Positions 35,642-39,068 of a DNA stretch of 64,000 nucleotides are shown here, piece by piece. Every line of letters starts with the position of its first letter. Positions within the stretch are counted from its first letter, which is position 1. This DNA comes from Anaerolineae bacterium. Its GTDB lineage: Bacteria; Chloroflexota; Anaerolineae; 4572-78; J111. A program made the translations under genes and the position numbers. A model generated the notes under the pieces. It searched no databases, was not told where the DNA came from, and worked only from the letters and a program-made list of their open reading frames with translations. The stretch is from assembly GCA_016931895.1 (NCBI GenBank), contig JAFGDY010000315.1:1-64000 (forward strand). Direction: 5' to 3'.

Positions 35642-37627
35642 GTGATAAAACAACCGGTAGATATGCTCTTAACCAATGGTTACCTGGTAACAATGGACAG
35701 CCAGATGAACCTGTATTCCTCCGGCGCAGTCGCAATAAAAGATAATCTTATTGTAGCGGTTGGTCCCGCCAATGAGATTGCGTCTGCCTATCAGGCCACA
35801 GAAATAATTGACTGCCAGGATTGTATCATCAGCCCCGGTTTAATCAATGCCCACACTCACGTTCCCATGACGCTGTTACGCGGCCTGGCCGATGACCTGC
35901 GGCTAGACGTGTGGCTCTATGGCTATATGATGCCGGTGGAACGCGAATTTGTAGGGCCTGATTTTTGCTATACCGGCACCCTGTTGGGCTGCGCCGAGAT
36001 GATTCGCTCTGGCGTGACCACTTTTTGCGATATGTATTACAATGAGGCCGAGGTGGCTCGCGCCACAGTTGAGGCCGGGATGCGGGCCGTGCTGGCCCAA
36101 ACCATCCTTAAATTCCCCTCCCCCGACGCCAGCAATTACGATCAGAGTTTGGCCTACTGCCGCCAATTCATCGAGGAGTGGCGCGGCCACCCCCTGATTA
36201 TTCCCGCCGTTGGCCCGCACGCCCCCTACACCGCCACGCCCGACATGGTGCAAAATTGTGCGGCGCTGGCCGCCGAATTTGATGTGCCCCTGCACATCCA
36301 CATCGCTGAAACAACATTGGAACAAGAAAACAGCGTGGCGCAATATGGCGCCACCGTGGTGCCCTGGCTACAAACATACAACCTGTTTGAGGCCAAGGTA
36401 ATTGCCGCCCACTGCGTGCATCTCCAAGAAAACGAGATGCGCACTTTGCATCAACACCGGGCCGGGGTAGCTCACTGCCCCAGCAGTAATCTTAAATTGG
36501 CCAGCGGCACTGCCCCGGTTCAAAAAATGGTTGACCTGGGCCTGCACGTGGGCATTGGCACCGACGGCCCCGCCTCAAATAACGACCTGGACATGTTCGA
36601 GGAAACCAGGCTGGCCGCTTTTTTGCAAAAAGGCGTTTTTGGCGACCCCACCCTGCTGCCGGCCAAAACCACCTGGGCCTTGGCCACCAGTGAAGGCGCT
36701 CGCGCCGTGCATATTGACCACCTGGCGGGTTCGTTGGAACCGGGCAAACGCGCCGACGTTGTCGTTATCGCCATGGCTCACACCCACCAACTGCCTCGTT
36801 TTGCCCGCGACCCGGAGGCAGTCTATTCGCAATTGGTTTACGCTACCAAAGCCACCGATGTTAGAGACGTGATTGTGGATGGCAAAGTGTTAATGCGAGA
36901 GCGTAAACTGCTAACCCTGAACGAGGCCAACATCATTGCCGAAGCCAAACAAATTGCCAAACGCATTGACGCCTTCTTGACCGCCCGCGAGGGAAATATT
37001 CTCTCCAAACTATTGGCCATCAGTACAGATTTTATTCCCCAGGAAACATTTGAAATTCAGGTCAAAGTAAAGTTGCCGGAACTCATCAACGTTAAGGCGG
37101 TGCTGGCAGAATCCGGCATCTCAACCTACCGCCCCTCCCTGAGAGACCAATACGACACCTACTTCTTGTTTGAAGATAAAGAAGCCGGGCGGCTGCGCTT
37201 CCGCGAGGATGAAGTAAAAAATGAACAGGGTGAATTACAGGAAACCTTTTACACAATGACCCTGATGGGGCCGACCAGTGAAAAAGAGTTTGAAAACTCG
37301 GTGTTGCTCACCCGCGCCCGTTACACAGCCTCGGCGCGACAGAGTTTACGCTTCTACCGGGAGTACTTCAAACCTGTTGCCGAACGAGAAGTGGTTAAGC
37401 GCCGCCGCCGCTGTCACATCAATTATAAAAATACAGATTTTGCCATTAACCTGGATCAATTATCCGACGCCGGCCTGGACAACGTTTATCTGGAAATCAA
37501 GAGCCGCACCTGGTCGGCCAAAGATGCCCTGCACAAGGCCGAACTCATTGGCGAACTGTTAGAGAAATTTCAGATAAAAACCGAAAACCAACTCAAAGCC
37601 GAGTACATAGACTTGATGCAAGAGTGA
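35642..37627 (+). CDS. Amidohydrolase (MtaD/ATZ-TRZ type) fused to a CYTH domain
   Basis: 661 aa, GTG start with AGGA ahead. Residues 1-440 form a metal-dependent amidohydrolase like S-adenosylhomocysteine/methylthioadenosine deaminase: metal ligands H71 and H73 ([10 protein letters not shown]), H220 with E223 (HIHIAE), H257 and D308 ([12 protein letters not shown]). Residues about 468-655 are CYTH/class IV cyclase-like: EIQVKVK (E471, Q473, K475, K477 in place of ExExK), [23 protein letters not shown] and YLEIKSR. CYTH proteins bind triphosphates or make cAMP. Normal deaminases are about 430 aa, so this is a true fusion in one uninterrupted frame. The tyrosine phenol-lyase gene follows after 28 bases. 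Confidence 0.88.
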
Positions 37628-37655
37628 AGTTCAAGTTATGGTCAAGGAGGACGCT

Positions 37656-39068
37656 ATGACTCACTCAAACCCGCAAACCATGGGCCAGCAGTTTGGCCGT
37701 CGTTCCTGGGCCGAACCATGGAAGATCAAAATGGTCGAGCCAATCCGCCTCATCAGCCGGGAAGAGCGGCAACAGGCTTTAGCCGAAGCCGGCTACAACA
37801 CCTTCCTGCTGCGTTCCAAAGATGTCTATATTGACTTGCTCACCGACAGCGGCACCAGCGCCATGAGCGACCGACAATGGGCCGGCCTTATGTTGGGGGA
37901 CGAGGCTTATGCCGGCAGTCGTAATTTTTATCACCTGGAACAAACCGTGCAAACCTATTACGGCTATCGCTATCTGGTGCCCACCCACCAGGGACGAGGT
38001 GCCGAGCATCTGATCAGCCAGGCCCTCATCAAACCCGGTCACTATATCCCCGGCAACATGTACTTTACCACCACCCGTTTGCATCAAGAATTGGCCGGAG
38101 GCACCTTTGTTGACGTCATCATTGACGAAGCCCACGATCCGGCCAACCCGCATCCCTTCAAAGGCAACGTTGATTTAGCCAAACTGGAAGCGCTCATCAA
38201 GCGCGTGGACGCTGAAAATATCCCCTACGTGAGCCTGGCCGGCACGGTGAACATGGCCGGCGGCCAGCCAGTGAGTATGGCTAATGTGAAGGCGCTACGC
38301 GAGTTATGCAACCGCTACGGTATCCGGGTCTACCTGGACGCAACCCGTATGGTGGAGAACGTTTACTTCATTCAACAACGTGAAGAAGGATATGCCAGCC
38401 GGTCCATTGCCGAAATTCTGCAAGAGTTTTGTAGCTACACCGATGGCGCCTGGATGAGCGCCAAAAAGGATCACCTGGTCAATATTGGCGGCTGGCTGGC
38501 CGTCAATGACCCAAAAGTTTTTGACCTGGCCCGCAATATGGTGGTCATTTATGAGGGGCTGCACACGTATGGGGGCATGGCCGGGCGCGATATGGAGGCG
38601 CTGGCCATTGGCATTGTTGAAGCTGTGCAGGATGACCATATTCGCGCTCGTGTTGGCCAGGTGCAGTATCTTGGTGAGTTATTGACCGACTGGGGGATTC
38701 CCATTGTGCAGCCGGTTGGCGGGCATGCCATCTTTTTAGACGCCAAACGCATCTATTCTCACCTCCCCCAGAACCAATTTCCGGCCCAAACCCTGGCCGT
38801 CGAACTTTATCTTGACTCCGGCATTCGTTCAATGGAACGCGGGATTGTCAGCGCGGGTCGGGACCCGGAAACAGGCGACCATCGTTATCCTGCCCTGGAA
38901 TTGGTCCGCCTGACCATTCCTCGCCGGGTTTACACCCAGGCTCACATGGATGTCACCGCCGAGGCGGTCAAAGCCGTTTACAACGCCCGCGCCCAAACGC
39001 GCGGCCTGAAAATGGTCTACGAACCTAAATATCTCCGTTTCTTCCAGGCGCGGTTTGAACGTTTATAA
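37656..39068 (+). CDS. tpl: Tyrosine phenol-lyase (beta-tyrosinase)
   Basis: 470 aa, AAGGAGG before ATG 37656. PLP enzyme splitting L-tyrosine into phenol, pyruvate and ammonia. Matches the Citrobacter enzyme nearly throughout: [56 protein letters not shown], Lys schiff base in [13 protein letters not shown] (K271). Numbering is offset by 14, so R395 in RSMERGI equals Arg381 and T138 equals Thr124, which distinguish tyrosine phenol-lyase from tryptophanase. Ends [11 protein letters not shown]. Probably cotranscribed with the amidohydrolase-CYTH gene. Confidence 0.9.

Follow-up and report, generated by a model that had tools for sequence, protein, structure and literature searches.

An amidohydrolase–CYTH fusion protein widespread in Anaerolineae and other Chloroflexota

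The window, i.e. the whole stretch of 64,000 nucleotides from an Anaerolineae bacterium that was analysed, contains a gene which joins an amidohydrolase to a CYTH (triphosphate-tunnel) domain and which is followed by a gene encoding tyrosine phenol-lyase (TPL). The features of the locus are:

35149..35409, + strand: small protein, Cys-rich at its start and acidic in its tail, conserved directly upstream of the fusion in the family
35632..35635, + strand: AGGA, likely ribosome-binding site of the fusion gene, read from the sequence
35642..37627, + strand: amidohydrolase-CYTH fusion gene, ORF of 661 codons with GTG start; orthologues elsewhere
35825..36889, + strand: Amidohydro_1 domain, residues 62-416 (Pfam; ligand invariance; Foldseek matches to MTA/adenosine deaminases)
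37052..37540, + strand: CYTH/triphosphate-tunnel domain, residues 471-633; its motifs are changed to E-x-Q-x-K and E-x-K (Pfam, fold, alignment)
37644..37650, + strand: AAGGAGG, likely Shine-Dalgarno sequence of TPL, read from the sequence
37656..39068, + strand: TPL gene, a local neighbour (TIGR02618 over cut-off; adjacency to the fusion not conserved)

An initial annotation of this DNA had described one uninterrupted frame of 661 codons comprising both domains, and this was confirmed: ORF 35642-37627 is a single open frame of 661 amino acids with a GTG start, and both domains scored above their Pfam cut-offs, Amidohydro_1 with 8e-78 (curated cut-off) and CYTH with 1.4e-6 (28.7 bits, cut-off 23.2). 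The metal ligands H71, H73, H220, H257 and D308, named as intact, were all present, and E471-x-Q-x-K475 and YLE618-x-K620 were found in the CYTH domain as claimed. The model of the full-length protein (pLDDT 93.1, pTM 0.88) is consistent with a defined packing of the two domains. Upstream, at 34781-35158, lies the remnant of a VKOR-like gene; in the congener (L035), the DsbA-like/VKOR pair at this place is intact, so that the window genome seems to have lost it.

The gene downstream encodes a true TPL, as annotated, with 772.3 against the TIGR02618 equivalog cut-off of 720.7; its likely start is the ATG at 37656, 28 bases past the fusion stop, with another in-frame ATG at 37638. Because of this spacing and since no terminator-like site was found in the gap, co-transcription of the two genes is plausible in this genome; it carries no weight for function. 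Earlier, deaminase, CYTH domain and TPL had been read as members of one pathway in which the CYTH domain makes a nucleotide signal, and the 28-base spacing together with the strong Shine-Dalgarno sequence does suggest co-transcription here. However, the adjacency is unique to this genome: TPL was found beside the fusion in none of about 200 other loci searched (some genomes counted twice), so that the pair did not recur in this sample, and in a further genome set which included the window it was near the fusion in the window only. The congener (G221) has no TPL gene, and a member of the same family (G269) has fusion and TPL on one contig, but 130 kb apart. By blastn, window and congener are similar over 34975-37615, up to 12 bases short of where the fusion gene ends, and again from 44889 onwards; TPL therefore lies within a segment that is variable inside the genus. 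This segment (37628-44888) encodes TPL, a LysM/cohesin protein, a Ser/Thr kinase-FHA protein and a two-component pair and is unlike that of the congener, with both flanks syntenic. Further, the CYTH domain lacks the HF motif of cyclases. TPL was rejected as functional partner by comparative gene context; it is an incidental neighbour, and the one-pathway reading is very improbable and already largely refuted by the comparative data.

The fusion itself is no peculiarity of this assembly, as had been considered. Searched with the CYTH part, 182 of 298 sampled Anaerolineae genomes carry it, nearly always as a single copy, and the open frames of the matches are mostly 650-750 codons long; a profile search found it in 89 of 400 Chloroflexota genomes, 39 of them outside Anaerolineae. 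The two-domain architecture, for which a database search had been advised, hence recurs across Anaerolineae and other Chloroflexota, and its carriers include Herpetosiphon aurantiacus DSM 785 (complete genome), Candidatus Chloroploca and Roseiflexus. In 80 named loci the domains are fused wherever the contig extends across the gene; four frames are shorter, and all of these lie at contig or locus ends. A split version was never seen where loci were readable in the whole-genome search sample. With the deaminase half as query, a fused orthologue of at least 49% identity was detected in 24/24 fusion-bearing genomes searched, and the best amidohydrolase match in genomes without the fusion had 39% identity. 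Since neither a close amidohydrolase orthologue nor this CYTH type was found in the sampled genomes without the fusion, the two halves are passed on together. In a tree built from the deaminase half, the 73 fused proteins group on a single branch (SH-aLRT 99), to which neither the four PDB sequences of MTA-deaminase type nor the unfused paralogues sampled belong; the tree was made by a quick method, and several unfused rows are long-branched and some poorly framed. From the recurrence, the co-occurrence of the halves and the single clade it follows that the architecture is old, of single origin as far as sampled, and that its halves travel together. Anatomy and distribution of the fusion are firmly established. 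Besides, two MAG contigs labelled Deltaproteobacteria and Bdellovibrio (L124 and L135) carry the fusion and form a pair on a long branch near Chloroflexia, reflecting either mislabelled bins or a transfer.

The closest folds of the deaminase half are COG0402 deaminases, i.e. those of Oleispira (3lnp), Chromobacterium violaceum (4f0r), P. aeruginosa (4gbd and 4dyk) and X. campestris (4dzh), with TM scores of 0.94-0.97 (by target length), 37-42% identity and all metal ligands, E223 and E100 in common. The HxH, H, H, D ligands and the catalytic Glu of this group are found here, and H71, H73, H220, H257, D308, E223 and E100 do not vary among 73 homologues. Apart from the attached CYTH domain, the fused proteins differ in having Asp at position 89 (73/73) versus Met, mostly Met, Phe or Leu at position 97 versus Trp, and Lys or Arg at position 157 (68/73) versus Asp or Glu in the four MTA-deaminase-type structures, and Arg or Gln at position 87 versus Pro or Ala in known MTA deaminases. 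From their adjacency to conserved active-site motifs, these positions probably belong to the pocket region, and since D89, M97 and K/R157 depart from known MTA deaminases, the substrate may be other than MTA. All NCBIfam equivalog cut-offs shown were missed, the best score being 465 versus 540 (PRK09045), and the MTA/SAH and 5'-deoxyadenosine deaminase models gave 299 versus 779 and 345 versus 522.

All of the 36 genomes searched have SahH, and 30/36 have an MTAP over cut-off; the MTAP genes checked show T-D-Y-D, which we take to be the adenine-type motif, in 9/9 cases. Adenosine deaminase (Add) occurs in 26/36 and is absent from 6 of the 24 fusion-bearing genomes tested. Because SahH, adenine-type MTAP and mostly also Add are already there, no metabolic gap is left for the fusion to fill. 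Four roles were rejected: an MTA to MTI route is unneeded for MTA salvage and the checked MTAP genes keep T-D-Y-D; SahH, universal in the set, does not have to be replaced by an SAH deaminase; most fusion genomes have a canonical Add, which speaks against a sole adenosine deaminase; and for an aminofutalosine deaminase, MqnE of the futalosine route is missing from the window's genome and over cut-off in only 1/24 genomes. 5'-Deoxyadenosine, a by-product of radical-SAM enzymes, is a candidate substrate.

The apparently more basic pocket region, with K/R157 for Asp/Glu and R/Q87 for Pro/Ala, and the close packing of the domains in the model (pTM 0.88) would also fit one shared substrate, i.e. 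a phosphorylated or otherwise anionic adenosine derivative on which the deaminase acts while the CYTH tunnel grips its phosphate end. However, D89 brings in an acid, and we know of no CYTH fusion whose domains share one substrate in such a manner; we consider this explanation improbable.

A fold search with the full-length fusion ranked amidohydrolases only and, therefore, the CYTH half was folded apart (pLDDT 90.7, pTM 0.85). This modelling, recommended with the initial annotation, predicted a triphosphate-tunnel fold with SaTTM, the CYTH triphosphatase of Sulfolobus acidocaldarius, as best Foldseek match (7ns9, E 3.7e-8), followed by class IV cyclases, AtTTM3, YgiF and thiamine triphosphatases. 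At the sequence level, comparison of this half with PDB entries by phmmer and profiles yielded nothing but noise. Tunnel fold, phosphate-binding Arg/Lys and the first Glu of both metal motifs are shared with SaTTM (7NS9), to which no deaminase is attached. Canonical TTM enzymes require ExExK and ExE; E7 and E135 of SaTTM bind metal 1, and the second Glu of ExE binds metal 2 (PMC8233210). In the fusion, the second Glu of both motifs is replaced in 73/73 aligned proteins, ExExK by E471-x-Q473-x-K475 and ExE by E618-x-K620; Q473 and E618 match E7 and E135 of SaTTM, and K620 occupies the position of the metal-2 Glu. K475, R519, R521, K586, R588, R590, D605 and R622 are likewise invariant (73/73), W624 is found in 72/73, and conservation in the tunnel motifs ranks with the highest in the entire protein. 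The tunnel is therefore strongly constrained, yet without the canonical metal set, which on the alignment suggests a non-catalytic or altered binding module.

Class IV cyclases carry HFxxxxExExK, a small residue where xRxR has its first Arg and Ala in ExE, and thiamine triphosphatases a W/YxRxR motif (PMC8233210). The window has I465-P466 at the H-F position, plus E-x-Q-x-K, R519 and K620 are invariant in 73/73, and the thiamine triphosphatase motif is not matched, with Arg at position 517 in 54/73 proteins and Trp in 3/73. Both the class IV cyclase signature and a canonical two-metal triphosphatase are excluded by the Glu replacements, and a class IV adenylyl cyclase (CyaB) was ruled out on motifs. 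The earlier idea that the CYTH domain makes a nucleotide signal is thus disfavoured; that it senses a nucleotide is possible and is the leading idea. The window genome encodes three further CYTH proteins, two with the full ExExK and all three with ExE. One of them, a free-standing CYTH protein (L001), has N-I-E-I-K for ExExK and keeps ExE.

Loss of the metal glutamates in 73/73 could mean that the CYTH half has lost ligand binding and serves as structural or oligomerisation module, but a dead tunnel would drift, and this one is held by some of the most conserved residues of the protein, which makes such a module improbable, too. The main rival to a ligand-sensing deaminase is a bifunctional fusion in which the CYTH half, too, is catalytically active, but by a changed chemistry, for instance as a pyrophosphatase or one-metal phosphatase. 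AtTTM1/2, fused to another domain and without ExExK and ExE, still cleave pyrophosphate (PMC8233210), which counts against a non-catalytic CYTH domain, and the invariant basic residues together with E471 and E618 suggest a used site. The plant TTM1/TTM2 resemble the fusion in that a non-canonical CYTH domain is joined to an enzyme domain from nucleotide-type metabolism (PMC8233210), but have a phosphoribulokinase/uridine-kinase-type partner and other motif changes and are restricted to Viridiplantae and Amoebozoa; CYTH-CHAD proteins of the YgiF type are multidomain as well, but have canonical motifs and a CHAD partner. Against an active CYTH half stand the substitutions at the SaTTM metal-1 and metal-2 positions and the CYTH paralogues in its own genome, which mostly retain canonical motifs, and we regard it as rather unlikely.

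Gene neighbourhoods were compared in 121 loci from 36 families, a set in which a single-copy gene is expected near the fusion by chance in ~ 0.6 families. MTAP was found in 5 families, always 0.8-3.8 kb downstream and convergent, hence not co-transcribed; pyrimidine-nucleoside phosphorylase likewise in 5 families, in most cases 2-3.5 kb upstream and divergent; and MoeA in 7, mostly 3-6 kb upstream on the same strand. Poisson probabilities are 4e-4, 4e-4 and 3e-6, respectively, uncorrected for the many gene families present, and the same three were the broadest families in an unbiased clustering of neighbours. The neighbours point to nucleoside salvage; since the families are related, inherited gene order could partly explain the enrichment. 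In Herpetosiphon aurantiacus, a likely methylthioribose-1-phosphate isomerase (MtnA; read by eye, L145 3706-4797) lies three genes from the fusion and MTAP about 45 kb away. One lineage (L097, also L055, L052 and L101) has a xanthine-dehydrogenase-like gene, MoeA, MobB, the fusion and a convergent MTAP together.

We propose, with a probability of roughly 0.48, that the fusion deaminates nucleosides under the influence of its CYTH domain, which holds a phosphate ligand but does not hydrolyse it in the canonical two-metal way, and that it acts in purine nucleoside salvage. The ancient Anaerolineae/Chloroflexia gene couples a putative zinc-type 6-aminopurine-nucleoside deaminase with a triphosphate-tunnel domain. 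The deaminase half, a relative of MTA/SAH/5'-deoxyadenosine deaminases, would catalyse the deamination; the tunnel would hold a nucleotide, polyphosphate or pyrophosphate, and binding of this ligand would tune the attached deaminase. More tentatively, the tunnel may be an allosteric (poly)phosphate receptor with little or no metal dependence, in which Q473 and K620 replace metal ligands and the basic residues hold the (poly)phosphate. In triphosphatases, the organic part of the substrate faces the C-terminal plug helix (PMC8233210), and the near-invariant R-T-W-S before this helix could read the base or other organic part of the ligand. The level of nucleotide or polyphosphate would then govern nucleoside deamination in two classes of Chloroflexota.

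In sum, a mostly single-copy fusion across two classes, unsplit in the whole-genome search sample, argues that a purine-type deaminase and a phosphate tunnel are tightly linked in function. This link seems to be undescribed; in the literature searched, both terms occurred together only in an unrelated GWAS. If the proposed ligand-tuned deaminase is correct, it would clearly exemplify a CYTH domain whose ligand binding dispenses with canonical two-metal chemistry, and it would offer a handle on the control of purine salvage in a poorly studied phylum with culturable species such as Herpetosiphon aurantiacus.
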